Shown here: positions 1 through 24,269 of the stretch, piece after piece | Layout: each line of letters opens with the position of its first letter | Position numbering within the stretch: position 1 is the first letter of the stretch | IMG/VR virus record: IMGVR_UViG_3300036770_005011 | Location: 1 to 24,269 of that record | Strand: one strand, 5' to 3' | Source: a virus | DNA length: 24,269 nt | Position numbers and translations under genes: made by a program | Notes under the pieces: generated by a model | Databases searched by the model: none | The model's input: the letters and a program-made list of their open reading frames with translations, nothing else | What the model was told of the DNA's origin: nothing

Positions 1-459
1 TCCAGATGAACCGTTTACACCTGAACTGCCTGAACTTCCTGAACTACCAGTTGAACCAGAAGATCCTGTGCTACCAGAACTACCAGCAGATCCACTGCTT
101 CCTGATGATCCATTAATTCCTGAACTGCCCGAAGAACCATTTTGACCCGATGATCCAGATGAACCGTTTACACCAGAACTGCCTGAGCTTCCTGAACTAC
201 CAGTTGAACCAGAAGATCCTGTGCTACCAGAACTACCAGCAGATCCACTGCTTCCTGAAGATCCATTAATTCCTGAACTGCCCGAAGAACCGTTTTGACC
301 AGATGATCCAGATGAACCGTTTACACCTGAACTGCCTGAACTTCCTGAACTACCAGTTGAACCAGAAGATCCTGTGCTACCAGAACTACCAGCAGATCCA
401 CTGCTTCCTGATGATCCATTAATTCCTGAACTGCCCGAAGAACCGTTTTGACCAGATGA
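1..459 (-). repeat. 153-base tandem repeat, three full copies, inside the collagen-like gene
   Basis: Units begin at 1, 154 and 307, each 153 bases, and a fourth starts at 460 but diverges after about 16 bases. Each unit codes for 51 residues, exactly 17 Gly-X-Y triplets, with fixed landmarks GQNG, GING and GVNG. The units differ at only a few bases (for example a GAT/GAA change and changes around the GQNG codons). The array continues past the left edge, so the copy number is unknown. Confidence 0.95.
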
Positions 460-960
460 TCCAGATGAACCGTTTGCTCCTGAACTTCCTGATGATCCAG
501 ATGAACCTGAACTTCCAGAGGATCCGCTACTACCACCACTACCAGATGATCCAGATGAACCAGACGAACCACTAGACCCAGAACTTCCAGACGATCCAGA
601 TGAACCATTTGCACCAGAGCTACCTGAACTACCTGAACTACCAGTTGAACCAGAAGATCCTGTACTACCAGAACTTCCAGATGATCCTGATGAACCTGAT
701 GAACCGCTAGATCCAGAACTTCCAGACGAACCTGAAGAACCAGAACTTCCAGATGAACCACTTGATCCAGATGTGCCGCTACTACCCGAAGATCCAGCTG
801 GTCCTATTTCTTTGCCTGTAACAGATATTGCCGCATTAGGAATTAAATTTATATCAATTTCATTTTCGCAAGTATTAACGTTGCTTTGTAATGAAGAATT
901 AACTACGCTTACATCAATTGTATTTTTGCTGTTTGTAACATTTACATCAATACTTGCCAT
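1..960 (-). CDS. Collagen-like Gly-Ser-rich phage fibre protein (C-terminus outside window)
   Basis: The frame is open from an ATG at 960 to the left edge (320 codons, no stop). Residues 1-52 are a non-repetitive head (starts MASIDVNVTN). From Gly53 on, every third residue is glycine, about 89 Gly-X-Y triplets without interruption. X and Y are mostly serine, with some Asn, Thr, Ala, Ile, Val and Gln and almost no proline. Collagen-like triplets are common in phage tail fibres and capsid fibres and fold as triple helices; the non-repetitive N-terminus is probably the virion anchor and the missing C-terminus the tip. The ATG lies 3 bases after the stop of the neighbour at 964-1293, so they are likely co-transcribed. 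The repeats are about half serine, which makes the protein a possible O-glycosylation target for the enzymes at 16405-21961 (inference). Fibre role is inferred; collagen-like character is seen directly. Confidence 0.85.
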   Translation of the reverse strand, partial: MASIDVNVTNSKNTIDVSVVNSSLQSNVNTCENEIDINLIPNAAISVTGKEIGPAGSSGSSGTSGSSGSSGSSGSSGSSGSSGSSGSSGSSGSSGSSGSTGSSGSTGSSGSSGSSGANGSSGSSGSSGSSGSSGSSGSSGSGGSSGSSGSSGSSGSSGSSGANGSSGSSGQNGSSGSSGINGSSGSSGSAGSSGSTGSSGSTGSSGSSGSSGVNGSSGSSGQNGSSGSSGINGSSGSSGSAGSSGSTGSSGSTGSSGSSGSSGVNGSSGSSGQNGSSGSSGINGSSGSSGSAGSSGSTGSSGSTGSSGSSGSSGVNGSSG

Positions 961-1837: not shown

Positions 1838-2692
1838 TTAAATAAAAACTTGCGGATATAAAGCTTTCATTTTATTCACATATTCATGTATTTCCGGTCG
1901 GTTCCATTTACGACTTAATTTTGGTAAATTAAATTTATATAAAAAATCAAAAACAACAGCCGCACGAATACCGTTAATTGAAAACACCGGATATTTATTT
2001 AAACTGTAAGAAATTGAATTTTTTTTATTTCTAAAATAACAATTTGAAAATTTATCAAAAATTATTTTATGAAGCCATTCAATAATAAAAATTGAACTAC
2101 TAATTACTCTAAATGCTAAAATATTTCTTTTTTTATCAAAAAAAATACATCCATCACCATCAATATATCCTATCAAATAACAAAATTTTAAATATTCATC
2201 GTTTAAATTTGGCGGCGCTAGTCTTGATGTTTTATTTGGAATTATATTATAATATTTTTGCAAATCAGCAATCCATTTAGGTTCAGATATAACCACTCGC
2301 GAATGCAAAAAAGTACCATCTCTTAGCGATGTTTTTATCGGTCCATCAAATCCTGCATCTTTTTTAAATTGCTCCAAATGTTCAATATCAGAATTTGATA
2401 TTTCTAATCTGTAATTATAACAATTCAAACTATGTTTATTAATTGATGCATCAGCCGCACTAAATCCAGCCCAATAACAAGAAATGGCATTGGGAATCCA
2501 AAAATCTATATTTACATTATATTTTTTAGCAGATTTAAATGGGTTTTTTATTTTTAATTGTTTCGCTTTATTTTGACAAGAATGCGAACTACGGTTTAAA
2601 AATTTTCCAATATCTTTATAAGAATAAACTCCAGTAGAACATTTTTCTTTTAGAATATTGATTTCTGAATCAGTCCATAATTGATAGTTCAT
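1838..2692 (-). CDS. Free-standing LAGLIDADG homing endonuclease
   Basis: 284 residues. An N-terminal Myb/SANT-like helix-turn-helix (residues about 5-48, WTDSEINILKE...KDIGKFLNRSSHSCQNKAKQL) is followed by two LAGLIDADG motifs: YWAGFSAADASI with Asp81, and YLIGYIDGDGCIF with Asp180. Two motifs in one chain is the monomeric arrangement, in which each motif gives one metal-binding acid and the enzyme cuts a long asymmetric site. Such genes spread by cutting alleles that lack them. It stands between the capsid gene's terminator and the SAP-like gene, is as AT-rich as the background and unlike the richer capsid gene, and looks intact. The N-terminal HTH probably adds site specificity. Activity is inferred. 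Confidence 0.85.
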   Translation of the reverse strand: MNYQLWTDSEINILKEKCSTGVYSYKDIGKFLNRSSHSCQNKAKQLKIKNPFKSAKKYNVNIDFWIPNAISCYWAGFSAADASINKHSLNCYNYRLEISNSDIEHLEQFKKDAGFDGPIKTSLRDGTFLHSRVVISEPKWIADLQKYYNIIPNKTSRLAPPNLNDEYLKFCYLIGYIDGDGCIFFDKKRNILAFRVISSSIFIIEWLHKIIFDKFSNCYFRNKKNSISYSLNKYPVFSINGIRAAVVFDFLYKFNLPKLSRKWNRPEIHEYVNKMKALYPQVFI

Positions 2693-8348: not shown

Positions 8349-11300
8349 TTATGCAATAAATAACGGCTCAAAAGTTTCCATAACATTATCGACTTGAGTA
8401 TTTTCCATATCAAAATAAATTTTTGCTAACCAATTACCTAATACTAAAGCTGAATAACTATCTTTTCTAGGTTTATCTGGACCTGTTTTACGTTTTAAAT
8501 TAGCTGGTAAATCAAAATTCTGTAAACCTTGAGCAGAAGTAGTAATTTGTATTAGTGCGCATTCTGTTTTAGTTAACAAAATCATATCAGTTAAATGCTC
8601 AACAAAATCAATCATTTTAGCTTCTTCGTTTTCTTTTTCTGAATCTAATGAATTAGAAAATTTTAAATTAGTAATGCCAATTCTTCTTTTAGTTTGCGCT
8701 CTGAAATTGTCATCAATTGCTCTGCTGCCAAAGAAAATACGACGATGATCAAAATTAGCTTGTAACATTTCATTCGCTAAACGTATCCAAGAAGAAGTTG
8801 GCTTTCTTAAAAATACATACTTATATTCTGATTTGTTATATTCCATTTTAGCAGAAAACAAGTTTTGGGCATATTCTTCAGGCCGCTCAAATTCTGTTGT
8901 AATTGATTTTAGATTAATTTTAGCGTCTTTGAAAAGTTCACTTTCATTGCAAGAATTCATAAACTGAACGCCACCGTTATAATCCATACATATTGCAACA
9001 ACATTGAAGTTTTGAAGTATATATAAAAAGTATTTAATATGGTCTTTTAATGATGAACCAGATAAAGCATAAGAATGGACAAGAGTTGATATTTGTTTTT
9101 CTCTATTTATCTTTAATACTTGAATCGCGAAATCGTCAGAAGATTCGGTTTCTGACCAAGAAGGGTCAACAGAAACTATATATTCATCTTCTGCATGACC
9201 CGCTACTTCAATTGACGGCAATTCACCATCAGGTATAGTACAAAGAGCCATTTTAGAAATTTTAAAATAACCAGAACTATCATCTGTAAATTGTGCTCCG
9301 AATTCTCTTAAAAACTGAGATTCACTCATCGTTGCTTTCGCTTGATTGATCAAATTTTGATCATATAATTGTGTCGGCGCACAATCATAAGAAAACTGCA
9401 TAACACAACGTCTAGTAGTATCTTTTGTTTTTGGATTAAAAATTAAATTTTCATACTGCTCATACAACTTATATAAATATTCAAATTTAAAAGATGCAGA
9501 AGATAATGCAATTAATTTATTATTAGGCCACTGATATCGATCTTCTTCTTTCATCTCGTCTTTTTCAATCAATTGTGTTTCGAGATTATAAAGCTCTTCT
9601 CTTTGTGTTGGATTTTGCACAACGGACAAGAACGGAACAATAACTTCATTATAAATACGTTCTGGCATCAATAAAAACTCGTCAATGATAATACGATGAA
9701 AGCGAAAACCGCGAAGCTTTTCACCATCGCCTAAAGGTAATGCTCGTATTCTGCTTTTACCGATTTCCATTACCCATTCATCATTACTTTTAGATACATG
9801 AGTAATACATTGTTTTAATAAATAAGCTTCTGGTTTTGCAGCAATATCTTCAATCTTTTTAAATATCATTTTAGACTGACGAAAACTGCGGCTCAAAATT
9901 CCTATCTCAACACCTTGATTAAATATCGCATCTAATGCTGCAAATATGCCACACGTATATGAATTATGATTTATAAATCCATCTGACATATAGCAATGTT
10001 CATTTGCTACTTGCAAATCTACGGTCTCATTAAGAGATTCTTCTTTTATTTTTACAAAATCAAAAAATAGATTTTCATCTAATAAATTATTTATTTTGTT
10101 TGAAGTTTCTAAATCAACAAAGTTTGCTAGATTTTTAGCAAGAGTCCGATTTGTTTTTTTTCTAAATGGCAATTTGATCTGCTGATTTTTATTTTTTTTG
10201 CAAATTGATTTTTTATTATATTTTGAAATTAAATATTCTCCAATAAAAGGAATCGTATTAGAAAATTGCCCATCAATATATTTTGCGGCATTAATTATAT
10301 TTAATTTTTCTTGTTTTCTATTTATTAAAAAACCAATAGAATCCTTAAATATTTTTATATTTTCATAAGTGCTTAATAAGATTGTCCAAGCTTTATTGCA
10401 AATATATTTTTTTCCTGAAAAATTAGACTCACCACCTTTAAAAGAAATTTTTGTAGTTGAATCTATTCCAAATATTAAAAGCAAAGTTCTGACTTGTTTA
10501 ATTAATTCATAAGACGTACTCGTAAAACCAATCTTTGCGCCATTAGAATTTCTACGTTTAGCTGATATTGAAGCGTAACCATCTGTATCAAATAAACCTT
10601 TTAATAGATTTGATGCGCTATCTTTCGAACAGTTTAAAAGTTTATAAGGAATTATTTTATTAACTGCTTTTTTTCCTACTTCAAAACCACAAAATTCAAG
10701 AAATTTTTGCAAAGACTTATTAGAAATAGTAAAGCTTTGGGCTTTATTGTTCTTTTTTTGATAAATTTTTAAATTAAGATTTAATTTATCACAAAAGTAC
10801 ATTAAGAAATTTTTTATTTCTATATCTTCGCTTGTGATTTGAATTATTTTATTTGTAAAACAGCCATCACCAATAAAAATTCCAAAAAAGTAATACCAAT
10901 CTTTTAACGATATTTTTAGTGGATCAATTACAACTTGATCAAATCTTTCTTTTTCAATAGAAAATCCTGCGAATATATTGATTTGATTACTGAAAAAACC
11001 ATTCTTACGCATTATAATACAATCTCCAATTGAAAGATCTTTAGCAAACTTCCATTCTTGTTCTAGATTTTTATTCAATATCAAAATTCTGTGATAATCT
11101 AGACCCTCAGATTCATAACCTTTATCTGTTGTTATCTTATATGTCTTTTGCTTTTTATTAACAGTTTTACCTTCCACTAATTGCATAGAATTTTTAGCAA
11201 GAACATAATCTCCAATTTGAACATCTATTGCTTTTTTAATTCCGTTATTTGTAAAAATTAAAGAATTTTTATTAGTACATTTACTTAAACCACGACTCCA

Positions 11301-11531
11301 TACCGCCAAAAAATAATCGCTTTCCAACATGCCTTTAATAGCCATATGTTGAAAAGGAAATAATTTAACTCCAGTAATCAAATCAGTTGAGAATGTAATA
11401 TTGTTTCTTAAAAACTGATAAAATAACAACTTAGCTTCTTTTTCTTCCATGAATCCTTCTTTTTGAAGAAGTTCTTCATTCGAAATTAAATAATTTTTTT
11501 TATTTTTTTGGCTCCCACATTCCCAGCTCAT
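8349..11531 (-). CDS. Terminase large subunit (gp17-like) interrupted by an intein
   Basis: 1060 residues; 621 after removal of the intein (residues 85-523), close to T4 gp17 (610). The DNA-packaging ATPase is split inside its P-loop: WSRGLSK before the intein and SYTCG after it give SRGLSKS once joined. Walker B is RIIIDEF with Asp617-Glu618; a coupling-type motif LIALSSAS follows (about 673-680). The C-terminal nuclease has SVDPSW (Asp789), CMDYNG (Asp850) and KDSYSALVLGNWL (Asp1024, aligning in style with the DDLVMSLVIFGWL of T4 gp17). The protein packages DNA through the portal and cuts concatemers. The start at 11531 overlaps the upstream gene by 32 bases; an alternative is Met28 (ATG at 11450), which has AAGGA just upstream. 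Confidence 0.93.
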   Translation of the reverse strand: MSWECGSQKNKKNYLISNEELLQKEGFMEEKEAKLLFYQFLRNNITFSTDLITGVKLFPFQHMAIKGMLESDYFLAVWSRGLSKCTNKNSLIFTNNGIKKAIDVQIGDYVLAKNSMQLVEGKTVNKKQKTYKITTDKGYESEGLDYHRILILNKNLEQEWKFAKDLSIGDCIIMRKNGFFSNQINIFAGFSIEKERFDQVVIDPLKISLKDWYYFFGIFIGDGCFTNKIIQITSEDIEIKNFLMYFCDKLNLNLKIYQKKNNKAQSFTISNKSLQKFLEFCGFEVGKKAVNKIIPYKLLNCSKDSASNLLKGLFDTDGYASISAKRRNSNGAKIGFTSTSYELIKQVRTLLLIFGIDSTTKISFKGGESNFSGKKYICNKAWTILLSTYENIKIFKDSIGFLINRKQEKLNIINAAKYIDGQFSNTIPFIGEYLISKYNKKSICKKNKNQQIKLPFRKKTNRTLAKNLANFVDLETSNKINNLLDENLFFDFVKIKEESLNETVDLQVANEHCYMSDGFINHNSYTCGIFAALDAIFNQGVEIGILSRSFRQSKMIFKKIEDIAAKPEAYLLKQCITHVSKSNDEWVMEIGKSRIRALPLGDGEKLRGFRFHRIIIDEFLLMPERIYNEVIVPFLSVVQNPTQREELYNLETQLIEKDEMKEEDRYQWPNNKLIALSSASFKFEYLYKLYEQYENLIFNPKTKDTTRRCVMQFSYDCAPTQLYDQNLINQAKATMSESQFLREFGAQFTDDSSGYFKISKMALCTIPDGELPSIEVAGHAEDEYIVSVDPSWSETESSDDFAIQVLKINREKQISTLVHSYALSGSSLKDHIKYFLYILQNFNVVAICMDYNGGVQFMNSCNESELFKDAKINLKSITTEFERPEEYAQNLFSAKMEYNKSEYKYVFLRKPTSSWIRLANEMLQANFDHRRIFFGSRAIDDNFRAQTKRRIGITNLKFSNSLDSEKENEEAKMIDFVEHLTDMILLTKTECALIQITTSAQGLQNFDLPANLKRKTGPDKPRKDSYSALVLGNWLAKIYFDMENTQVDNVMETFEPLFIA
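9963..11279 (-). mobile_element. Intein with LAGLIDADG endonuclease in the terminase P-loop
   Basis: 439 codons in frame within terL. It begins with Cys85 (CTNKNSLIF), has a block B-like LDYHRIL with the expected histidine (His147), two LAGLIDADG motifs (FGIFIGDGCF about 216-225 and LKGLFDTDGYAS about 310-321), a block F-like VDLQVANEHCYMSDGFI, and ends INHN before Ser524. Cys at the first position, His-Asn at the end and Ser at +1 are the canonical residues for protein splicing. The insertion point is the ATP-binding loop, so an unspliced precursor could not be active. It is intact by eye and as AT-rich as its host gene or slightly more. Confidence 0.95.
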
Positions 11532-12432
11532 AGTCTAAAAAATATTGTATGTCTACTTGCCATAACTTATTACCATGATATAAAAGTTTCGGTATAATAT
11601 CTAAAGATTTTTCGCGATTACCTGTAAATATGAATTGAATATGTCTAGCATATTTATGAGTTAAATAACGCATATTGTGAAAAACATATTCTAAACTAGT
11701 TCTGCGATTATATTTTTTATGATTGTATTTAATATCATTTATAGTAGATTCGATAACTACAAATAAATAACTATTTAATCCTACTGCTTTTTCTATCTCT
11801 CTTTCAAATCTACTTAATCCAGAAGCCATTGTTCCTAGAAAATCAGATTCACTTTTTCTATCAACAAAAGTATAACTATATGTATTATTTTCTAATAAAT
11901 AATCGCCAACATATAATTTTTCAATACGCGAATTAGCAAATTCTAATGGCATTTGTTCTCTAGTATCAATTAAAATAGTCGCATTCTGCAAATCAACATT
12001 ATTAAAATCTGATATTATATTTTTATTAAATACTGGTTCTTTATTCAATTCTTTGCAAAATGTATTATATGAACCGAAATGTTTTTTTATTATATTAATT
12101 GGTGGCAATGCTAATGTTTTAATTTCGTTATGAAATGGCGCATAAGAGTAATTCTTTTCTTTAATACGTTCAGAAATTATTTCTAAACATTTAGATTTAA
12201 CAATTTCTTGAGGCTGAGATCTCTCCCATTGCAAAAATTCATTTAAATCAATGAATTCTGTCTTGAAATAATCTTTTTTATTTAAATAAGGTATTTGTCT
12301 TTTATAAAACAGAGAATACCTCGGATAATGAGTACAATAATATTCTGCTTGATATATATTGTGTTTTTTTAAATGCGCGTGAAATGATTTATCATTATCA
12401 AACTTTTCATTACATATTTTACATTCTGTCAT
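11500..12432 (-). CDS. ERCC4/XPF-type nuclease with N-terminal C2H2 zinc finger
   Basis: 310 residues. Residues 4-24 form a classical C2H2 finger (Cys4, Cys7, His20, His24). Residues about 84-125 (ending KKHFGSYNTFCKELN) resemble the short helical repeat often attached to homing endonucleases. From about 150 an ERCC4 nuclease core is seen: ILIDTREQ (Asp156, Arg158, Glu159), VGDYLL (Asp177) and FVDRKSESD (Asp191-Arg-Lys, Asp197), the last a variant of the family's ERKxxxD with Asp in place of Glu. Such cores cut DNA at branched or flap structures. It overlaps the gene upstream by 4 bases and terL by 32, so it belongs to the packaging operon. It could act in branch removal before packaging or be a domesticated homing nuclease. 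Confidence 0.75.
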   Translation of the reverse strand: MTECKICNEKFDNDKSFHAHLKKHNIYQAEYYCTHYPRYSLFYKRQIPYLNKKDYFKTEFIDLNEFLQWERSQPQEIVKSKCLEIISERIKEKNYSYAPFHNEIKTLALPPINIIKKHFGSYNTFCKELNKEPVFNKNIISDFNNVDLQNATILIDTREQMPLEFANSRIEKLYVGDYLLENNTYSYTFVDRKSESDFLGTMASGLSRFEREIEKAVGLNSYLFVVIESTINDIKYNHKKYNRRTSLEYVFHNMRYLTHKYARHIQFIFTGNREKSLDIIPKLLYHGNKLWQVDIQYFLDYELGMWEPKK

Positions 12433-15372: not shown

Positions 15373-16416
15373 GTGATATTTCACTGCTTAAGTATACCTT
15401 ATTCACCAACTTGTAAAGAATATTCGTTATGCGCATTTGTTCAAAAAGTTTATAAATTTTGCGATGAAATGACAAAGCGTGGTCATACTGTATATCATTA
15501 TGGTCATAAAGATTCTAAAGTTAATTGCACTGAACATATAACTGTTACAGATAATGAAATTTTAAAAGATACATATGGCGATCTTAACGCTTGGAAAACA
15601 AAAGGTTATGATCAACATGTCAATAATAAAGCTTTTGATATTTTTAATGATAATTGCGTACAAGAAATAAATAAAAGATTAAAATCTAAGAATGAATTTA
15701 TTTTAGCATGGTTTGGTTTCGGTCATGAAAAATGTGTTAAAAATTTTTATGATAAAGCTATAGTAGTTGAACCAAGTATTGGTTATGATAGCATGTTTGC
15801 ACCGGTTAAAATTTTTGAAACAAAAAGCCAATTACATAAACTCCACGGAAATCAAAACACATTAGTGAATTTCGGAAAAGAATTTGTTATTTATCCTGGT
15901 TTTAATAAAAATGATTTTGAATACAAAGCGCAAAAATCTAATACCGCGCTATTTCTTGGAAGAATAATAAAAGAAAAGGGTGCACGTTTAGTTTATGATA
16001 TTTATAATCATATTAAGCAAGATATTATTTTTGCAGGCCCGAATATATTAAATTTAAAAGATACAAAATATTGTAAATTTATTGGTTTTGTTGAACCAGA
16101 ACAAAGAAAAAAACTATTAAGCGATGCTAAATGCTTAGTAGCTCCTAGTTTATTTATAGAACCGTGTAACTGGACTGTAATCGAAGCGCAGTTTTCTGGA
16201 ACACCTACAGTAACAACGGACTTTGGCGGTTTTACAGAAACAGTTGTACAAAATAAAACAGGCTATAGATGTTTTAGTCCTAAAAACTTAATCGATGCAA
16301 TTTTAAATATACAAAATATTTCTCCAAATGATTGCTATCTTAATGCAATAAATAAATACACAATTGAAAAACAATGCGATGACTACGAGATAGTTTTTAA
16401 AAATTTAATTCACTAA
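15373..16416 (+). CDS. GT4-family glycosyltransferase
   Basis: 347 residues from a GTG start (GTGATATTTCAC); no in-frame ATG exists upstream, because ATG at 15371 is in another frame and stops at once, and the N-terminus MIFHCLSIPYSPTCKEYSLCAF matches the usual first strand of this enzyme group. The Rossmann-like GT-B halves are visible: N-terminal strand with a GHTVYHYGH segment, then FLGRIIKEKGARLVYDI (194-210) and FIEPCNWTVIEA with Glu263 and Glu271 (EX7E signature of retaining GT4 enzymes). It transfers a sugar from a nucleotide-sugar. It is the only plus-strand gene in the phage part and overlaps the end of the giant enzyme gene tail to tail by 12 bases. Substrate unknown; probably part of the same glycosylation set. 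Confidence 0.88.
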   Translation: MIFHCLSIPYSPTCKEYSLCAFVQKVYKFCDEMTKRGHTVYHYGHKDSKVNCTEHITVTDNEILKDTYGDLNAWKTKGYDQHVNNKAFDIFNDNCVQEINKRLKSKNEFILAWFGFGHEKCVKNFYDKAIVVEPSIGYDSMFAPVKIFETKSQLHKLHGNQNTLVNFGKEFVIYPGFNKNDFEYKAQKSNTALFLGRIIKEKGARLVYDIYNHIKQDIIFAGPNILNLKDTKYCKFIGFVEPEQRKKLLSDAKCLVAPSLFIEPCNWTVIEAQFSGTPTVTTDFGGFTETVVQNKTGYRCFSPKNLIDAILNIQNISPNDCYLNAINKYTIEKQCDDYEIVFKNLIH

Positions 16417-19400
16417 ACCATTTATTATTATCTCGTTATAATAATCTTTTATATTCCAAAAGTTTTCAGTAATATCTACTCCATCTAGTGAAAAAAGTTT
16501 AAAAGTGATATCTTTATCATTTTTCATTCTTTCTAAAGTTTTATAAACTTCATGTCTTGGAAAGTAATCGCCAAGGAAATGAATTTCTCCTGAAAATTTT
16601 CTAACTGATTTCTTAAATAAATTATAATTATTATTTAAAATCAGTCTTTCATAAGCTTCAATATCAAATTTTAGAAAATCAATTTTTTTATTTATAAGAG
16701 AAATTAGATTTTCAAATGTTATAGATGAAACTTTTTGAATAGCATTTTCATGAAAAATAGATTTAAAATTTTGCACATCTAACTTATCAGATAAGAAAGC
16801 ATTCATTATAATAGGCTTGTCGTTATTTGATAAATTAGAAACAAAATCATTAATACAATCAACACTCGCATCAATACCTAGATAAGTTATATTCTTATTT
16901 TTATTTTTAAGATATAAATAACCTTTAGAACATCCTAGATCAACTACAAAATCATTTTCTTCAATTTTTTGATACAGTTCATATTGGTTATGCAAAAATA
17001 TTTCATTGAATACAAAAGAATCAAGATTTTTATAATTTGCTACATCAGCACCATCATAAATTATATTATCAATTTGTTTTTTAACGTCAGCAAAATATAT
17101 ATTTTTTGAACACTCAAATTGACGATCTGTATTTTGATGTCTCGGACACCAATTCCAATCTCCTTTGTTGAACTGGTAATTAGTATCATTCCAGCAACCA
17201 TTACATACATTTAAATTAGTAACTCTATATGGAGTATTAAATTCAGTAAAAGCTTTACTGAAACCATTAATCATAATTACTTTTTTGCCCAAAGCCCAAG
17301 CTAACCAACTAATACCAGAACCTAGACCAATATAAAAATCACAATAATTTAAATAATCTAAACAATCATTTAATGTATTTGTTTTTGGATGTATAACGTT
17401 ATTTAACCCTTTCAAATCCATATAATTCAACGGTTCTTTTTGAATTACAACAACTTGATATCCTTTTTGATTCAAATAATCTACAGTTTGCTGCCAACCA
17501 TCAGAATTTTGCCAATGTTTAAGAGCAGCAGTTGAAGCTGTAGTAATACAAACATATTTACCATCAATTTTTCTAGTGGCTTTAGATGTATCAATTTTAG
17601 GTTTTATTTCTTTATATTCTAAACCTAATATTTCCGCTGCTACTTGTTGTAGATTTTGCGTTCTATTATCTTTTGGAGTAGAACTAAAATCATTTGAATC
17701 AAAATAACCCAATTTGTAAGTAGCATAATAAGATGTATTTATAACACCATAATTTTTGAAATTAATTAAAGGATATTCATTTGCAAATAAATCTTTATTA
17801 GGGGTATAAAAATCAAGTAAACAATCATGCTTTTTTCTGAACTCTTCAACATAAGGCATCCAAGCAATCAAATCACCCAAAGATGGCGACTCATTAATTA
17901 TACAAACTCTTTTATATTTTAGATTTATACTATTTTCGTAAACTAGTTTTGAATCGCTACTAACCTTAACACGCCAATCAATAAAATATTTAATATTTGG
18001 CATTGTCCACATATTGTTTGTGATGTTAGATTCATAAATTAATTTACCATCAGTCTTATTGAAAAATTGAACAGTATAATTTGTATTATCGTTTCCTGAT
18101 ATTTCTAATTTGCAACCGTTATTATAATCAAGCTTAAATATATTGCTATGAATTTTATAGTCTATATGTTTAACATCAGTGTTTTTATAAATGTCAATCA
18201 GTTGATCTTTCATTTTATATTCTTTATTATAATGAGATAATAATTGTAAAATTATGTTAGTCCATGATTTTTTATGAATATTTTCTTTTATTTTTTCACA
18301 ATAAAAATCATAATTAGTTATAACATCACAAATTGCTGAAACAATATGATCAACATTTCTTTCAATTCTTGTTAAACCTATTAATTCGTTATTTTTTTCA
18401 AAAGTTGATAGAACAGGTAGTCCACAAGATAATGCTTCTAACAATGTTAAATTAGGGTGACCGGCTTCTAAAATAGATGGACTTAAAAATATTGTATGAG
18501 ATTGATATAATTCAATTAAATCATTTTCATTCAAATCATAAATTATATTTAATTTATCATAGTTACAATTATAGCGTTCAAAGAATTTTTTGTTATTCGA
18601 CGGACCAGCAACTGTAATTGGCAAATTTAATTTTTGTGCTGCTTCAATAGCAAAACTAAAACCTTTTCTATCTTCAGATGCGTCATGAATAAATCCATTA
18701 TTTGCGACACATAATAATTTATGATCCTTGAATTTATTATCTACATTTTTAAAAACCTCAGTGTTTACACCATGACTTAAATAATTTAAATTTGGTAAAT
18801 CAAAATATTCAACTAAATATTTAGCCGGAACAAATGATTTAACTGAATACTTTATTGCTTCATAGTTTTCTTTGAAACAAAAAGAATCTTTTCCATATAA
18901 ATATGCATGATGATCATGACAAGTAAAATAATATGGTATATTTCTGCTTTTAGCAAGCAATGCTAAATTAGCCATGTGAATATGTATAATATCACCTTCT
19001 TTATAAACTAAATCATCTAAATAAACGATTTGCGAATCAAAACCTAACTTTAATAATGATTGATGATACTCCCAAATTATTTTCTCTGTAGCGCCCCAAC
19101 CATTTGGAGGTATAGGTAAAAGCCCTGTATGAATATTAAAAATTCTAGGCATATTCATTTCTTTATTTTTTAAATAAATAATGCATTTCTCTATCTCGCT
19201 AACAGATTTACAACCGTGAAAAAATTTAATATCATTTTTATCGCTTGGAATAACATGCCACGGGCAATTTTTTACAAAATGAGATTTATTTTCAGCCTTA
19301 TAAAAATCATCTATATCAGTAATCGATCCAACATTATAATAACTTAGAGGCAATTGTTTTTTAGCGTTAATCTGCCATAATTTTAAATTTAATATTGTTT

Positions 19401-20046
19401 CATCATGATATGGAGCATATAAAACATGATTTTCAATTATTCTTTTATCAGCAGCCAATTTTTGGCAATCCATAAAAAAATCTTTACAAGATGTATTAAA
19501 TAAAAAATAACCACTTTGTACATAATGCATGGATCTATTTTTTATATTCAACATATCCATTGATTCTCTCTCTAAAACATCAGCGGTAAATGGATCTCCT
19601 TTTCCATTCCACATCATATATTCAAAAACCCCTTTAGTTGCTAAAGGGTAATTTTCTATTTCACTCAAATAAGAAAAAACTTCATCAACATTTTTTCTTA
19701 CAATTGAATCACAATCAATAAAAAATCCTTCTTCTAAACCATTTGATAAAGCATTTAAAACAATATCAAATTTTTTTACTAATGCGTGATAAGTATTGAC
19801 ATCTTCTCTATTAACAATACCAATATTGTTTAAATCTTTTGCGTTTTTAACAAAATGTGGATTTTCTAATTTATAATTAACTCTCTTTGCAATAATGTTT
19901 TTCAAATCAGTTTTTAGATCAAAATTATAAGTATATATTATTATTTTATTATTAGAAAATAATGACAATGTTTCAGCAAGTTTAATAGCCAAGTCAGCAT
20001 ATATTTCATTGGCGAAAGTTATATAAGCGCGTTTAGGAAATTTCAT
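16405..20046 (-). CDS. Four-domain glycosylation enzyme: GT-A, GT4, TibC-like O-heptosyltransferase, FkbM-like methyltransferase
   Basis: 1213 residues. (1) About 1-297: GT-A fold glycosyltransferase with FFIDCDS (DXD, Asp111 and Asp113). (2) About 300-620: GT4, with CVANNGFIHDASEDRKGFS and EAGHPNLTLLEALSCGLP (Glu527, Glu537). (3) About 628-710: beta domain (GCKLEISGN...NNMW...YFIDWRVKV), followed at 712-995 by a GT9-like domain with SLGDLIAWMPYVEEF, GLGSGISWLAWALGKKV and cysteines Cys948, Cys951, Cys967 and Cys979 (CNGC...DWNWCPRH...FECSK). This beta domain plus cysteine set is the hallmark of the TibC/AAH O-heptosyltransferases, which modify serines of autotransporters. (4) About 1030-1185: SAM methyltransferase, VVDLGCSKGY and IDFLKFDIEAYE, FkbM-like. 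Overlaps the upstream gene by 14 bases. Acceptor unknown; the serine-rich collagen-like protein is a candidate. Confidence 0.88.
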   Translation of the reverse strand: MKFPKRAYITFANEIYADLAIKLAETLSLFSNNKIIIYTYNFDLKTDLKNIIAKRVNYKLENPHFVKNAKDLNNIGIVNREDVNTYHALVKKFDIVLNALSNGLEEGFFIDCDSIVRKNVDEVFSYLSEIENYPLATKGVFEYMMWNGKGDPFTADVLERESMDMLNIKNRSMHYVQSGYFLFNTSCKDFFMDCQKLAADKRIIENHVLYAPYHDETILNLKLWQINAKKQLPLSYYNVGSITDIDDFYKAENKSHFVKNCPWHVIPSDKNDIKFFHGCKSVSEIEKCIIYLKNKEMNMPRIFNIHTGLLPIPPNGWGATEKIIWEYHQSLLKLGFDSQIVYLDDLVYKEGDIIHIHMANLALLAKSRNIPYYFTCHDHHAYLYGKDSFCFKENYEAIKYSVKSFVPAKYLVEYFDLPNLNYLSHGVNTEVFKNVDNKFKDHKLLCVANNGFIHDASEDRKGFSFAIEAAQKLNLPITVAGPSNNKKFFERYNCNYDKLNIIYDLNENDLIELYQSHTIFLSPSILEAGHPNLTLLEALSCGLPVLSTFEKNNELIGLTRIERNVDHIVSAICDVITNYDFYCEKIKENIHKKSWTNIILQLLSHYNKEYKMKDQLIDIYKNTDVKHIDYKIHSNIFKLDYNNGCKLEISGNDNTNYTVQFFNKTDGKLIYESNITNNMWTMPNIKYFIDWRVKVSSDSKLVYENSINLKYKRVCIINESPSLGDLIAWMPYVEEFRKKHDCLLDFYTPNKDLFANEYPLINFKNYGVINTSYYATYKLGYFDSNDFSSTPKDNRTQNLQQVAAEILGLEYKEIKPKIDTSKATRKIDGKYVCITTASTAALKHWQNSDGWQQTVDYLNQKGYQVVVIQKEPLNYMDLKGLNNVIHPKTNTLNDCLDYLNYCDFYIGLGSGISWLAWALGKKVIMINGFSKAFTEFNTPYRVTNLNVCNGCWNDTNYQFNKGDWNWCPRHQNTDRQFECSKNIYFADVKKQIDNIIYDGADVANYKNLDSFVFNEIFLHNQYELYQKIEENDFVVDLGCSKGYLYLKNKNKNITYLGIDASVDCINDFVSNLSNNDKPIIMNAFLSDKLDVQNFKSIFHENAIQKVSSITFENLISLINKKIDFLKFDIEAYERLILNNNYNLFKKSVRKFSGEIHFLGDYFPRHEVYKTLERMKNDKDITFKLFSLDGVDITENFWNIKDYYNEIIINGLVN

Positions 20047-21961
20047 TATTTAAATGAGCGTAAAAAAATCCTGTTTCATTTAAAAATTTTGGATCTTCAA
20101 TATTTATTATTTTATAATTTAATTTAGTAAATCTGTTGACTATATCAAATACATTCTTTTTGTTACCTAAATGATATTCAATAATGTATCTAGGACATTT
20201 TACAATTTCTTGATCACGCAGACCAGCTATTACTTCATATTCTGCACCTTCAATATCTATTTTAATTAAATCAATGTTTTTTATATTTTCTGAAGTATAA
20301 AAACTATTTAATGTGATTACGTCAACTTCTTCTTCTGTAACATTATTACCAGTATATTCATGAGCTTCTTTCATGAAGCCGCTAATCGTAGAATTATCTT
20401 GAACGCTCTTAATTTTTAATTTTCCATTTGTATTAAATATAGCTTTTTTAATTAATGTAAATTTATCATTATTACCGAGAACTTTAGATAACTGATCGAA
20501 AGCTTTTCGAGTTGGCTCAAAAGCGTAGATTTTTTTACTGCCTCGATTAGCCATGTATAAGCTAAATAATCCAACATTAGCACCAATGTCTAAAACAGTA
20601 TTTAAATTGTCTATTTGTAAATGACCATATATATTTTCATAAAACATTTGCTTATAATTTATATACAAACAATCAAATGGACTAAAATTAACATTCAAAA
20701 CAACCGGCATATAATTCAAATCTTTTACTTTAATTTTCTTCTTACCGAGTAAATTTTTATTCAAATCATAAAATTCAATCAAAAAAGTGCTAAAAAATGT
20801 TTCAGAACTAAAATCTTTATTACCATTAGGCACAATATACCATGATTTAGCTTCTGTAAAATCTACTTCACAATGATACATTGGTATATTTGTAAAACAA
20901 TCTTTAATAGAAACTAAATATTTGGTCTTAGGACCATAATTTGTTAATTCAAATTTATTCGGAGCCGTAAAAACTATATCAATCGGTAATTCTTTTGTAT
21001 AAAAACCTTTTATCATTGATAAATTGTGATCAAAATTATCAGATAAATATGTTATATTTTTATATTCATCATACATTCCACAATATACCGGCAAATTATA
21101 CATCAAAATAGGCATTCTCCAACCAATCGCTTCTCTTAATACTAAAGGATTTGTTTCTTTATCATGAGCTGTGCCTTTTGATGTGAAGAGAAATATATCC
21201 ATAGCATTATAAAATGTGTCAACATCTTTTCTTTCTCCCCACCATTTGCAGTTTGATGGAAAATCTTTCATCAATGGTTCCCAATATTCTCTAAAATTAT
21301 CAGCTTGATTACCGACAAAATGAAACTGCACCGGTTCGTTCAATAATTCTTTTGCGTATTGAATGATTTCTTTTTGATTTTTACGTGAAGTAAATAAACC
21401 AACGTTTAAGAAATGTACTTTATTAACATCTAAGCCTAAATTTTTTAAAGCTTCTGTGCGGTCTGTTTTTATTTTATATTCTATAGGATACAAAACAACA
21501 TCTGATGGTATATTTAATGGCGCAAACATTTGTTTTTGATATTCGCTTACAAATACAAAACGATCAGGGTAAAAACATTTATTTTGTATTTCAAAACTAC
21601 TATCATGAGATGTTTCAATAATCTTATATCGGCGGTTCTTATTGTATATGTTTTTTGCTATATCATGATTGCAAAAGTACTCTGGCATTTCTTCAAAATG
21701 TACAATGTCAGGATTGATAGAATTAATATGATTCATCAATTCTGCTTTATTTTCACCAAGTGTTATTAGTTTATTACCTAATATTTCTTTAATTTGATTT
21801 CGTTGTACTACGAGAACGCCGCCTGTTATATCTGAATACTCAATGCAATATATATCACAATCATTTTTTAGTTCTTGTATTTTTTTGAGTAAATATTGCG
21901 GACCGCCACCGGTTGACAAGTGCGGAGTAATAAATAATACTTTGAATTGATGATTTGACAT
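20033..21961 (-). CDS. GT4 glycosyltransferase - FkbM methyltransferase fusion
   Basis: 642 residues. Residues 1-330 are a GT4-type enzyme: FITPHLSTGGGPQYLL (Gly-rich loop), FLNVGLFTSRKNQKEIIQYA and a late segment GTAHDKETNPLVLREAIGW. Residues about 330-430 are a beta-rich spacer with no assigned family. Residues about 455-600 are an FkbM-type methyltransferase: VLDIGANVGLFS (458-467, SAM loop), YAFEPTRKAFDQL and IDLIKIDIEGAEYE. FkbM enzymes O-methylate sugars. Together the halves would add and cap a sugar in one chain. It overlaps the gene on either side (TAATG with the small gene upstream, 14 bases with the four-domain enzyme), so the set is one tightly coupled operon. Confidence 0.9.
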   Translation of the reverse strand: MSNHQFKVLFITPHLSTGGGPQYLLKKIQELKNDCDIYCIEYSDITGGVLVVQRNQIKEILGNKLITLGENKAELMNHINSINPDIVHFEEMPEYFCNHDIAKNIYNKNRRYKIIETSHDSSFEIQNKCFYPDRFVFVSEYQKQMFAPLNIPSDVVLYPIEYKIKTDRTEALKNLGLDVNKVHFLNVGLFTSRKNQKEIIQYAKELLNEPVQFHFVGNQADNFREYWEPLMKDFPSNCKWWGERKDVDTFYNAMDIFLFTSKGTAHDKETNPLVLREAIGWRMPILMYNLPVYCGMYDEYKNITYLSDNFDHNLSMIKGFYTKELPIDIVFTAPNKFELTNYGPKTKYLVSIKDCFTNIPMYHCEVDFTEAKSWYIVPNGNKDFSSETFFSTFLIEFYDLNKNLLGKKKIKVKDLNYMPVVLNVNFSPFDCLYINYKQMFYENIYGHLQIDNLNTVLDIGANVGLFSLYMANRGSKKIYAFEPTRKAFDQLSKVLGNNDKFTLIKKAIFNTNGKLKIKSVQDNSTISGFMKEAHEYTGNNVTEEEVDVITLNSFYTSENIKNIDLIKIDIEGAEYEVIAGLRDQEIVKCPRYIIEYHLGNKKNVFDIVNRFTKLNYKIINIEDPKFLNETGFFYAHLNNEIS

Positions 21962-22740: not shown

Positions 22741-23046
22741 TGTAAGTCGGCGGCTATTATATTATTCTACTTTCTTTTTGCAAGATAAAAAACAAGGGTT
22801 GGAACAAATTGTGTCGTATTTTTTTTGACTTTAACAAAGGAGATAATAGAAAATGTAGATATATATTTTTAAAAAAAGGGGGAGGGGTATATATATGTAT
22901 GTTTTATTATATATGTTTATATATCATAGGACATATAAATAGAGGAATTGAATGAAATTGGATAAAATGGATTAGAGATTGAGGAAAACCTCCCCCCACC
23001 GCAACGCGAAACAAGCAAGTCAAAAATTTTTTGAAAATTGGGGGGG
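22741..23046. other. Non-coding boundary region between AT-rich phage part and GC-rich end
   Basis: No convincing gene on either strand. 22741-22980 is AT-rich with long A/T tracts and G-runs (aaaaaaagggggaggggta at about 22,871). An AAAGGAGA sequence near 22,838 is followed by ATG then an immediate TAG. From about 22,981 the sequence turns richer in C and G (cctccccccaccgcaacgcg), with a final AT patch and a seven-G run ending near 23,046. The base composition changes for good across this stretch. Confidence 0.6.
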
Positions 23047-23063
23047 TTGGCACGATCCTTGCT
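23047..23063 (+). promoter_or_regulatory. Sigma-54-like -24/-12 element (copy 1)
   Basis: TTGGCACGATCCTTGCT has GG and GC exactly 10 bases apart and fits the sigma-54 promoter consensus TGGCACG-N4-TTGCW at all the key positions. It lies about 90 bases before the first small gene and upstream of its -35/-10 promoter. It may instead be a repeated operator; see the other copies. Confidence 0.5.
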
Positions 23064-23100
23064 CTCAGCAGAGTGAACGCTGTCCAGGAATCGAAAAAAT

Positions 23101-23152
23101 CTGCACAGAAGTTGTTGACGGATCGGCATCCCTCCTGTAGGCTATAGCCACA
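23101..23152 (+). promoter_or_regulatory. Promoter cassette 1 (type A), leaderless
   Basis: CTGCACAGAAGTTG precedes TTGACG (23115-23120), a 17-base spacer, TAGGCT (23138-23143), then nine bases ATAGCCACA and the ATG at 23153. A transcription start about 7 bases after the -10 would fall one to three bases before the ATG, so the mRNA would be nearly leaderless. No Shine-Dalgarno. The spacer differs from cassette 4 at only 3 of 17 positions. Confidence 0.8.
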
Positions 23153-23278
23153 ATGAATCACGACAAGAGCCTCTTCGAAAAAGTCAGCGACACCATCGTT
23201 ATCTTCACCGTGACGGTCTTCTACTGCATCCCTTTCTTCGGCATGGGCTACGGTATCGGCACCGGAATCTTCGGCTGA
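23153..23278 (+). CDS. 41-residue membrane peptide
   Basis: ATG at 23153, TGA at 23276-23278. The start is set by the promoter cassette, whose -10 box ends 9 bases before it, identical in all four cassettes. A charged N-terminus (MNHDKSLFEKVSD) is followed by a hydrophobic stretch (TIVIFTVTVFYCIPFF) and a glycine-rich end (GMGYGIGTGIFG), together one likely transmembrane segment of about 25 residues. Family not recognised. Codon use is GC-rich and unlike the phage genes to the left. Being first in a row of early-type cassettes, it could be a small host-takeover or membrane protein; that is a guess. Confidence 0.65.
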   Translation: MNHDKSLFEKVSDTIVIFTVTVFYCIPFFGMGYGIGTGIFG

Positions 23279-23282
23279 AAAT

Positions 23283-23334
23283 CTGCACAGAAGTTGTTGA
23301 CACCCTGAACCTCAACCTGTAAGCTGTAAGCACA
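23283..23334 (+). promoter_or_regulatory. Promoter cassette 2 (type B), leaderless
   Basis: CTGCACAGAAGTTG (23283-) is followed by TTGACA (23297-23302), a 17-base spacer, TAAGCT (23320-23325), nine bases GTAAGCACA and ATG at 23335. It begins 4 bases after the previous stop codon. Its spacer differs from cassette 3 at 3 of 17 positions. Confidence 0.82.
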
Positions 23335-23553
23335 ATGAAACACGAAATGACAGTGACTCTGAACAACATCCGCGTTGGCGACATCATTCCTGCCGGTTCC
23401 TTTGGCATGGGATTCGATGACGTGACGGTTACCGAGATCGGTCCTGACGAGGACTATGGAAACATGATGCGGATCGTGGTTGTCGGCCCGAAGGGTCGGA
23501 GCATCTACTGCCGATCCTTCGGCGGTCGTGATATCACCGTGGTCCGCAACTGA
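23335..23553 (+). CDS. 72-residue unknown protein, small beta fold likely
   Basis: ATG at 23335, TGA at 23551-23553. Sequence features: MTVTLNNIRVGDIIPAGSFG, then TVTEIGPDEDYG and RIVVVGPKGRS. Alternating beta-like strands with 'VGDII' and turn glycines suggest a small beta-barrel, similar in feel to SH3/KOW-type or other small nucleic-acid or protein binding domains, but I recognise no family. The start is fixed by the promoter cassette. Coding looks real: balanced GC-rich codon use, open for its full length, and framed by cassettes on both sides. Confidence 0.75.
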   Translation: MKHEMTVTLNNIRVGDIIPAGSFGMGFDDVTVTEIGPDEDYGNMMRIVVVGPKGRSIYCRSFGGRDITVVRN

Positions 23554-23562
23554 AAAGACCGG

Positions 23563-23600
23563 TTGACACCTTCAACTTCAACCTGTAAGCTGTAGGCACA
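23563..23600 (+). promoter_or_regulatory. Promoter cassette 3 (type B), leaderless, no upstream repeat
   Basis: TTGACA (23563-23568), 17-base spacer, TAAGCT (23586-23591), nine bases GTAGGCACA, ATG at 23601. This copy lacks the CTGCACAGAAG element found before the other cassettes (it has AAAGACCGG instead). It begins right after the preceding stop. Confidence 0.8.
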
Positions 23601-23759
23601 ATGAACAACGAACTTCTCGATCCTCAGTCTGAAGTCCAATCGCTCGCCGTTGTCTCAACGGAAGAGCTTCCCGGCTACGCGGAGTGGCTTGCCGAGTGTG
23701 AGGCTCAACTGGATCCCGATTGGATCTCAAGCTGGGCTAAACACTTGGGCGAATACTGA
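23601..23759 (+). CDS. 52-residue acidic unknown protein
   Basis: ATG at 23601, TGA at 23757-23759. Acidic, Trp-containing, with a predicted helix-rich C-terminal half (PGYAEWLAECEAQLDPDWIS, then SWAKHLGEY). No family recognised. It is too short to be found by length alone; support comes from the perfectly placed promoter cassette (-10 box 9 bases before the ATG) and the GC-rich codon use it shares with its neighbours. A small acidic helical protein in an early-type cassette could be an inhibitor or adaptor, but nothing shows its target. Confidence 0.65.
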   Translation: MNNELLDPQSEVQSLAVVSTEELPGYAEWLAECEAQLDPDWISSWAKHLGEY

Positions 23760-23760
23760 A

Positions 23761-23777
23761 AACAATCTTCGTGCCAA
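23761..23777 (-). promoter_or_regulatory. Sigma-54-like element (copy 2, minus strand)
   Basis: On the minus strand TTGGCACGAAGATTGTT: GG and GT 10 bases apart, with GT instead of GC in the -12 box. It is back to back with copy 3; the two share an inverted TGCCAA / TTGGCA pair 7 bases apart. Confidence 0.35.
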
Positions 23778-23784
23778 GTGAAGC

Positions 23785-23801
23785 TTGGCATGAAACTTGC
23801 T
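23785..23801 (+). promoter_or_regulatory. Sigma-54-like element (copy 3)
   Basis: TTGGCATGAAACTTGCT, GG and GC 10 bases apart. It points into the long hairpin at 23804-23861; a sigma-54 start, 12 or so bases past the -12 box, would fall inside the left arm. Confidence 0.45.
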
Positions 23802-23803
23802 GT

Positions 23804-23861
23804 GGGGCCCCTCCTTCTGTAAGTCCTTGATACTGAGGGACTTACAGAAGCGGAGGTCCCC
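23804..23861. repeat. Long inverted repeat / hairpin between convergent elements
   Basis: A 12-base perfect arm pair (23815-23826 and 23838-23849, TTCTGTAAGTCC) is extended outward by CCTCC/GGAGG and GGGG/CCCC with small bulges, 58 bases in all and a loop of about 11 bases. There is no T-run on either side, so it is not a classical terminator for the gene ending at 23759. It is followed to left and right by the inverted copies 3 and 4 of the TTGGCA element, making a near-symmetrical unit of about 95 bases (23785-23879). It could give a structured RNA end, be a protein-binding palindrome, or be a mobile-element relic. Confidence 0.7.
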
Positions 23862-23862
23862 T

Positions 23863-23879
23863 AGCAACTATCGTGCCAA
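23863..23879 (-). promoter_or_regulatory. Sigma-54-like element (copy 4, minus strand)
   Basis: On the minus strand TTGGCACGATAGTTGCT: a full match to TGGCACG-N4-TTGCW. It points into the hairpin, toward copy 3. Confidence 0.5.
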
Positions 23880-23897
23880 CACTGATTTTCCAGGCGA

Positions 23898-23914
23898 TTG
23901 GCATGAAACTTGTT
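23898..23914 (+). promoter_or_regulatory. Sigma-54-like element (copy 5)
   Basis: TTGGCATGAAACTTGTT, sharing the first 15 bases with copy 3 but with GT in the -12 box. It lies 12 bases before the promoter-associated repeat of cassette 4. Confidence 0.35.
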
Positions 23915-23925
23915 TCCTGAAAAAT

Positions 23926-23977
23926 CTGCACAGAAGTTGTTGACGGATCGGCGTCCGTCCCGTAGGCTATAGCCACA
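23926..23977 (+). promoter_or_regulatory. Promoter cassette 4 (type A), leaderless
   Basis: CTGCACAGAAGTTG (23926-), TTGACG (23940-23945), 17-base spacer, TAGGCT (23963-23968), nine bases ATAGCCACA identical to cassette 1, ATG at 23978. Confidence 0.82.
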
Positions 23978-24256
23978 ATGAAACGCAACGCTACCTACGC
24001 TGAACTGAACGCTGACTTCACTTGGACCGACTGCACTGGTGAGAAGATCGTTACCCCCAAGGGCACGAAGATCGAAGTGCGGGCGAGCTTCAAGGGAATG
24101 TCGATGCTGCACAAGGGCGACAAGTTCCACCCTGCTGGCGTGATGATCTGGATGGGACGAGATCTTCATCCGATCATTCCTCTTGACAAGATCGCGAACT
24201 TCACAATGAACGGTGAAGACGTGACTGCTCGATGGGCGAACGCCATCCTGAAATAA
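23978..24256 (+). CDS. 92-residue unknown basic protein
   Basis: ATG at 23978, TAA at 24254-24256. Strand-like segments (TYAELNADFTWTD, GTKIEVRASFKG, FHPAGVMIWMGRD) and a C-terminal helix (VTARWANAILK) suggest a small alpha/beta fold. No family recognised. The start is set by the promoter cassette. Immediately after the stop the CTGCACAGAAGTT repeat begins again, so another cassette must follow outside the window. It belongs to the GC-rich segment and is the longest of its four genes. Confidence 0.75.
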   Translation: MKRNATYAELNADFTWTDCTGEKIVTPKGTKIEVRASFKGMSMLHKGDKFHPAGVMIWMGRDLHPIIPLDKIANFTMNGEDVTARWANAILK

Positions 24257-24269
24257 CTGCACAGAAGTT
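24257..24269 (+). repeat. Fourth copy of the promoter-associated repeat, cut by the window edge
   Basis: CTGCACAGAAGTT matches the 5' part of the copies at 23101, 23283 and 23926. It shows that a further cassette begins at the right edge. Confidence 0.85.

Follow-up and report, generated by a model that had tools for sequence, protein, structure and literature searches.

We analysed a 24,269-base stretch of viral DNA (IMG/VR virus record IMGVR_UViG_3300036770_005011, positions 1-24,269), referred to below as the window, by which the whole stretch is meant. Its minus strand encodes a 1213-residue protein that combines a putative GT-A glycosyltransferase domain, a GT4 glycosyltransferase domain, a TibC-type domain and an FkbM-type methyltransferase domain in one chain. 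On balance, we favour the reading that this gene specifies a phage-made, multi-step glycosylation enzyme, in which the TibC-type domain would prime the phage's own repeat fibres, the GT4 and GT-A domains would extend the glycan and the FkbM-type domain would methylate it. We infer the repeat protein as acceptor, the order of the steps and the function of the glycosylation.

A four-domain chain with a TibC-type core

The gene and its domains are as follows (aa, amino acids):
16405..20046, minus strand: four-domain glycosyltransferase/methyltransferase gene, 1213 aa, ATG start, intact open reading frame (ORF)
19159..20046, minus strand: GT-A domain, aa 1-296, with a DXD motif (D111/D113)
18187..19158, minus strand: GT4 (GT-B fold) domain, aa 297-620 (PF00534 38.4 bits; fold Z 24-28)
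17059..18165, minus strand: TibC-type domain, aa 628-996, with beta-barrel, GT9-like core and four-cysteine finger
16408..17046, minus strand: FkbM-type S-adenosylmethionine-dependent methyltransferase domain, aa 1001-1213 (PF05050 match and class I methyltransferase fold)

The initial annotation had described three glycosyltransferases, a TibC-like domain and a methyltransferase united in one chain, and this content was confirmed (GT-A, GT4, TibC-type and FkbM-type). The 1213-residue frame is genuine; its strand, which the annotation had not given, is the minus strand. An artefact of joined neighbouring genes was ruled out, since the same four-domain chain is found in L002, a contig 99.99% identical to the window over 15.9 kb, and in L003, a contig with a 93% identical four-domain protein. 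When other contigs were searched for the same architecture, only L002 and L003 shared the exact order of the four domains with the window. In L004 and L013 the GT-A part is encoded by its own ORF and the GT4-TibC-FkbM part is still fused; the L004 ORF (4839-7562) comprises GT-A and then about 600 residues of other sequence. The four-domain gene is under purifying selection, with a ratio of non-synonymous to synonymous substitution rates (dN/dS) relative to L003 of 0.105 for the whole gene and of 0.04-0.20 over the four domains.

Residues 628-995 had been likened to the autotransporter heptosyltransferases. The profile of that family, TIGR04414, matched aa 638-995 with 332.6 bits (curated cutoff 200), and the domain matched the sequence of TibC (PDB 4rap) with an E value of 1.5e-63. 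A predicted structure of the domain (mean predicted local distance difference test score, pLDDT, 86.6) superimposed on 4rap with a Z score of 40.9 and a root-mean-square deviation of 2.1 over 365 of 384 residues; the matched range, model residues 7-382, includes the N-terminal barrel. The Pfam model of this barrel alone scored 20.3 bits, below its cutoff of 27. The proposal to group the core domain with protein O-glycosyltransferases is supported.

According to the accessible part of the TibC study (PMC4358343), TibC acts on protein serines, uses Asp110 as base, and contacts its donor through Arg286, Trp305, Thr226 and Lys230; Arg286 contacts adenine and is highly conserved in the family, and Cys339, Cys342, Cys358 and Cys370 are the four cysteines. 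The window equivalents of the active-site residues are D725 (Asp110), T839 (Thr226), K843 (Lys230), W914 (Trp305) and C895 (Arg286), and the predicted four-cysteine domain was borne out by C948, C951, C967 and C979, which align with the iron-finger cysteines of TibC. We counted these positions in 128 aligned sequences less than 90% alike, 127 from phages and one from a bacterium (L117). The equivalents of Asp110, Trp305 and all four cysteines were kept in 128/128; part of the cysteine conservation reflects selection, because the loci had been found by motifs touching the last cysteine or its surroundings. Thr was found at the Thr226 position in 117 and Lys at the Lys230 position in 113 of the 128. 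Since the catalytic Asp, the Trp and the cysteines are kept, the enzyme family looks active.

Arg286 is the exception. Its equivalent is Arg in 48 of the 128 sequences (47 of 127 phage sequences without L117) versus 29 of 29 bacterial sequences, two of which are one gene and most of which come from best-scoring loci. Given the change of Arg286 to C895, we file the window copy as TibC-like and not as an ADP-heptose (adenosine diphosphate heptose) transferase. At the hydrophobic tip of the beta-hairpin thumb, where TibC needs F265 and V266 for its dodecamer, the TibC alignment is gapped and the window protein has no FV pair; many phage sequences are shorter than TibC in the thumb region.

The other domains were assigned with differing strength. 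For the proposed GT-A domain, Asp111 and Asp113 of the DXD motif proved invariant in 26/26 aligned relatives. No Pfam model matched aa 1-296 of the window protein itself; one of the 26 relatives gave a weak GT8 match (E 0.002), and there were weak profile matches to glycogenin and Skp1 galactosyltransferase (E 0.03-0.8). These residues are probably of GT-A type, and the absence of GT-A enzymes from our fold-match lists, which GT4 enzymes filled, is uninformative. The GT4 assignment was upheld by PF00534 at aa 459-548 (cutoff 26.4) and by PF13692 at aa 458-578 (36.6 bits, cutoff 27), and the model of this domain (mean pLDDT 82) reached its Z scores of 24-28 with many GT4 enzymes. As for the methyltransferase, PF05050 matched aa 1047-1165 with 22.7 bits, which is exactly the cutoff, and the modelled fold is that of a class I methyltransferase.

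Association of TibC-type genes with Gly-Ser-Ser repeat genes

At one end of the window lies a repeat gene that is our candidate acceptor:
1..960, minus strand: Gly-Ser-Ser repeat gene, truncated at the edge of the window

From residue 56 of its product onwards, Gly starts 88 of 88 triplets, 64 triplets are GSS, Ser and Thr make up 57% and Pro is missing. In a longer contig of the same phage (L496), which matches the window with 99.99% identity over 15.9 kb, the gene is whole (582 aa), and a second repeat gene, at least 376 aa long, comes after it.

To quantify the association, we grouped TibC-type genes into 61 clusters at 85% identity, one of which (L117) is bacterial. Fifty TibC records of at least 20 kb were drawn from them; the remaining 11 clusters fell outside this set, being bacterial, below 20 kb or part of the annotated phage collection. 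A fixed DNA pattern of five Gly-(Ser/Thr)-(Ser/Thr) triplets occurred in 37 of the 50 records versus none of 77 control contigs (0/36 and 0/41; Fisher p 2e-21 with pooled controls), the controls being contigs of at least 20 kb drawn by two arbitrary 14-mers (36 by one, 41 by an AT-rich one). Approached from the other side, a strong TibC match (E <1e-60) was present in 20 of 50 repeat-bearing records, namely the first 50 distinct records of 20 kb or more among the matches listed, versus 0/77 controls (Fisher p 5e-10); one control contig gave a weak partial GT9-like match (E 1.3e-7).

The two genes also lie near each other. In 17 of 21 long records (at least 60 kb, with repeat) the repeat fell inside the fetched TibC locus, where 4.05 were expected (P 8e-10, a value that assumes random placement, counts each array as a point and takes no account of the tendency of tail genes to cluster). 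A Gly-X-Y Ser/Thr-rich ORF was located within the fetched locus in 41 of the 61 clusters, with a median gap of 1694 bp. The gap was below 100 bp in eight clusters, and in six of these the genes are codirectional, with the repeat gene directly downstream of the TibC-type gene at a distance of 30-66 bp. This order resembles that of 7/28 bacterial loci, where the ORF immediately after the TibC-type gene is rich in Ser and Thr (21-30% Ser+Thr). Among relatives that share PhoH with the window, 23 of 37 records matched a four-triplet version of the pattern. Since the window and another record, G151, end inside repeats, fragments may hide further ones.

The repeat proteins look like fibres, judging from their C-termini. 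Peptidase_S74, a tail-fibre chaperone domain, scored above its cutoff of 22 bits in two of ten sampled C-termini (L022, 51.3 bits; L044, 22.1 bits), and several of the ten matched tail-fibre PHROGs. An ORF with GTSGSSG (Gly-Thr-Ser-Gly-Ser-Ser) repeats, 1016 aa or longer, lies on the plus strand of the cultured Microcystis phage Mel-JY01; it is followed by an annotated structural protein and then by a 1226-residue TibC-type enzyme, whose gene starts 1.7 kb downstream of the end of the repeat ORF.

The annotation of this Mel-JY01 region (PP395634.1; L509 2-3052, L508 5738-8001) covers the repeat ORF at its C-terminal end only (WWT39288) and places minus-strand ORFs over the Gly-Thr-Ser repeats. 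An open ORF also runs out at the opposite end of PP395634.1, and on a circular record the two frames would agree.

Acceptor, donor and competing explanations

The initial annotation had named virion proteins or the host surface as targets. Given that TibC-type genes and Gly-Ser-Ser repeat genes occur together and close to each other, the likeliest acceptor is a virion protein of the phage, and the best supported candidates are the phage's own (Gly-Ser/Thr-Ser/Thr)n repeat proteins. The TibC-type domain would place the first sugar on Ser or Thr of these proteins, which would be tail or other virion fibres. The glycan would then be lengthened by the GT4 and GT-A domains together with two neighbouring GT4 genes and methylated by the FkbM-type domains, and it may shield or stiffen the fibre or adapt its fit to the receptor. 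The order of priming, extending and capping put forward in the annotation is a guess. SdgB, a GT4 enzyme that glycosylates Ser-Asp repeats (PDB 7vfl), matches the fold of the window GT4 domain at Z 24.9, so GT4 itself could be the priming domain. SdgB is not singled out by this match, because dozens of GT4 enzymes score alike.

Several observations weigh against this proposal. TibC's known acceptor is a beta-helix and not a collagen-like strand. In the window, the repeat gene lies about 15 kb from the enzyme gene, and the C-terminus of the 582-residue repeat protein gave only weak matches, to PHROGs of unknown function. Thirteen of the 50 TibC records did not contain the repeat pattern; in five of them (L011, L057, L070, L074, L081) the TibC locus contains a looser kind of Gly-X-Y Ser/Thr-rich ORF. 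Only the 20 kb floor was common to the controls, whose length distribution, G+C, habitat and host were unmatched; L373 and L402, both among the 36, appear to be near-copies. Conversely, 30 of the 50 repeat-bearing records among the matches listed were without TibC, and no glycosyltransferase appeared among the 25 commonest of 76 Pfam families near these TibC-less repeats, where rarer ones may hide (79 ORFs from 23 of the 30 loci, compared with 79 of 118 ORFs from random loci). The donor side adds two more points: the adenine-binding arginine that TibC needs is Cys895 in the window protein, and the ADP-heptose adenylyltransferase profile (TIGR02199) reached its cutoff in none of the 50 TibC records.

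The 30 TibC-less records would also fit the idea that another virion protein (capsid, neck or baseplate) is glycosylated and that the Gly-Ser-Ser link merely reflects a shared variable tail module. Tail and capsid genes do lie near the TibC-less repeats (tail chaperone, Mtd_N, coat proteins), and capsid and tail proteins of mycobacteriophages are glycosylated, as told in the accessible part of PMC12619734. We nevertheless hold this to be improbable, given the direct pairs in 6/61 clusters with the TibC-type gene upstream and the dense Ser/Thr acceptors that the repeats offer. Somewhat less improbable, though still unlikely, is that the cluster changes the polysaccharide on the host surface while infection proceeds, for instance to keep other phages out, with the TibC-type enzyme as an ordinary GT9-like transferase acting on lipopolysaccharide. 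Polysaccharide pathways commonly include GT4, GT9-like and FkbM enzymes, a host-surface role is the reading given for pelagimyophage glycosyltransferases (PMC7029224, accessible part), and further GT9-like genes lie upstream in seven TibC loci (L023, L024, L025, L026, L028, L029, L030; two of them profile-scored). The TibC part, however, has the barrel and the iron finger known from TibC, and its model reached Z 17.8-19.0 with WaaC and heptosyltransferase II versus 40.9 with TibC; nor does a host-surface role predict the association with repeat genes. Phage glycosyltransferases can also decorate DNA bases, as is generally known and noted in the accessible part of PMC12619734. That the enzyme decorates hypermodified bases of the phage DNA is nonetheless very improbable in view of the protein serines on which TibC acts.

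To return to glycosylation of the phage's own repeat fibres, ADP-heptose is doubtful as the donor of the window copy, because the adenine-binding arginine is lost. The notion of a self-contained heptosylation machine was not supported, given this loss and the absence of an adenylyltransferase match above cutoff. Matches to TIGR02199 below its cutoff were obtained in six of the 50 TibC records and in our reading fit related small nucleotidyltransferases; TIGR02199 was the one ADP-heptose pathway profile searched. A cytidylyltransferase-like gene of Mel-JY01 gave weak matches to nicotinamide mononucleotide adenylyltransferase models only. Genes for rfaE are reported from pelagimyophages in the accessible part of PMC7029224, so the ADP-heptose pathway is not foreign to phages.

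Among known systems, the closest enzyme is TibC, and the closest viral plan is that of PBCV-1 A064R and A111/114R. With TibC/AAH (TIGR04414; PDB 4rap, 4rb4) the window enzyme shares the whole TibC fold, Asp110, Thr226, Lys230, Trp305 and the four iron-finger cysteines, and the TibC-type clusters share a directly adjoining Ser/Thr-rich partner gene (8/61). In contrast to TibC/AAH, it is phage-borne, fused to GT-A, GT4 and methyltransferase domains and altered at Arg286, its candidate acceptor is a Gly-Ser-Ser repeat protein instead of a beta-helical autotransporter, and no ADP-heptose adenylyltransferase scores above cutoff. No autotransporter was recognised among the ORFs of the window, which is a fragment record, and no profile search was aimed at autotransporters. 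The Chlorella virus PBCV-1 proteins A064R (two glycosyltransferases and a methyltransferase) and A111/114R (three glycosyltransferases) likewise unite several glycosyltransferase domains in one chain and make virion glycans (PMC9614988, PMC7826918, accessible parts). PBCV-1 is a eukaryotic virus with N-glycans on its capsid protein, and the accessible parts of these papers mention no TibC domain; the likeness is one of plan only. Mimivirus L230, a collagen lysyl hydroxylase/glucosyltransferase, is also viral and adds sugar to peptides from a collagen-like protein that the virus itself encodes (PMC9614988, accessible part), whereas its target is hydroxylysine and the enzyme is a different one. 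Mel-JY01 WWT39291 (1226 aa) shares TIGR04414 (317.4 bits) and GT4 in one chain. It is annotated as 'methyltransferase FkbM' and had no FkbM match at E 0.001 in our Pfam scan; its TibC domain is C-terminal, and the window protein aligns with it over aa 604-996 only, at 41% identity. Our literature search, from which subscription papers were mostly out of reach, found no description of a phage TibC-type enzyme or of a glycosylated Gly-Ser-Ser phage fibre.

Spread, modular architectures and neighbouring genes

The TibC-type domain is not as rare in phages as had been supposed. A TibC-type profile scan found relatives in 351 viral stretches (E 1e-3 or better among candidates; the best 80 were retained), and the loci of PhoH-sharing relatives carried a TibC-type gene in 61 of 80 cases, yet only 4 of 50,697 records of the annotated phage collection matched a phage TibC-type query. 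Two of these four, of 735,411 bases each, look like one phage; the others are a record of 636 kb and Mel-JY01. PhoH and the neighbouring GT4 gene had been considered as neutral controls and were dropped; TibC-type genes were present in 61/80 and 42/54 of their loci, respectively.

Modules of the GT-A, GT4, GT9-like, GT25-like, FkbM and TibC types were found in several orders, in chains of up to 1891 residues (L136). Many PhoH-sharing relatives (L142, L154, L171, L177 and others) have a second TibC-type gene of about 275-300 aa right behind the large one. In a tree of 157 sequences (FastTree, midpoint root), the 30 bacterial ones, from one phylum and mostly from best-scoring loci, formed one group with a support of 99. 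Since the deepest phage branches are long and weakly supported, we draw no direction of transfer from the tree.

We see an even chance that many aquatic phages combine a TibC-type O-glycosyltransferase with Gly-Ser/Thr-rich collagen-like fibres and exchangeable fused glycosyltransferase/methyltransferase modules, yielding a lineage-specific fibre glycan from a donor other than or besides ADP-heptose. If so, such a system would correspond, on the viral side, to bacterial adhesin/heptosyltransferase pairs; an enzyme related to one that glycosylates bacterial adhesins would be acting on virions, and the long Gly-Ser-Ser/Gly-Thr-Ser repeat proteins of environmental phages would be explained as glycoprotein fibres. 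The modular chains would then provide a ready means of varying the glycans at the phage surface, which bears on host range, competition between phages and the recognition of phages, and Mel-JY01 would offer a directly testable case in a cultured phage.

Two further glycosylation genes flank the four-domain gene:
20033..21961, minus strand: upstream gene, 642 aa, GT4 and FkbM methyltransferase (PF00534 45.8 bits, PF05050 77.9 bits)
15373..16416, plus strand: convergent GT4 gene, 347 aa, phrog_3408 (214.7 bits)

The upstream gene shares 14 bases with the four-domain gene and the convergent gene shares 12 bases with it; the window thus contains three adjacent glycosylation genes. It also encodes a T4-type terminase (PF03237) and PhoH. 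Portal-, protease- and capsid-like genes were called by position, without a Pfam or PHROGs match at E 0.01.

The terminase gene contains an in-frame insert (9966-11280, minus strand), which is cleanly absent from L003 and L004 and which we take to be intein-like from its terminal residues and motifs; at this site L013 carries about 1.2 kb that does not align. Overlapping the terminase start, 11500-12432 (minus strand) encodes an ERCC4-type nuclease domain and a weak match to a C2H2-like finger. An ORF with a LAGLIDADG-like region and a Myb-like N-terminus (1838-2692, minus strand; weak Pfam matches) was seen elsewhere only in L496, most of the loci searched stopping short of this place. An array of short direct repeats and tiny genes occupies 22900-24269 of the window and 1500-5000 of L002, with about 51% G+C versus mostly 24-41% in the rest of the phage. 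A 92-aa ORF occurs twice in L002, and one copy is that of the window.

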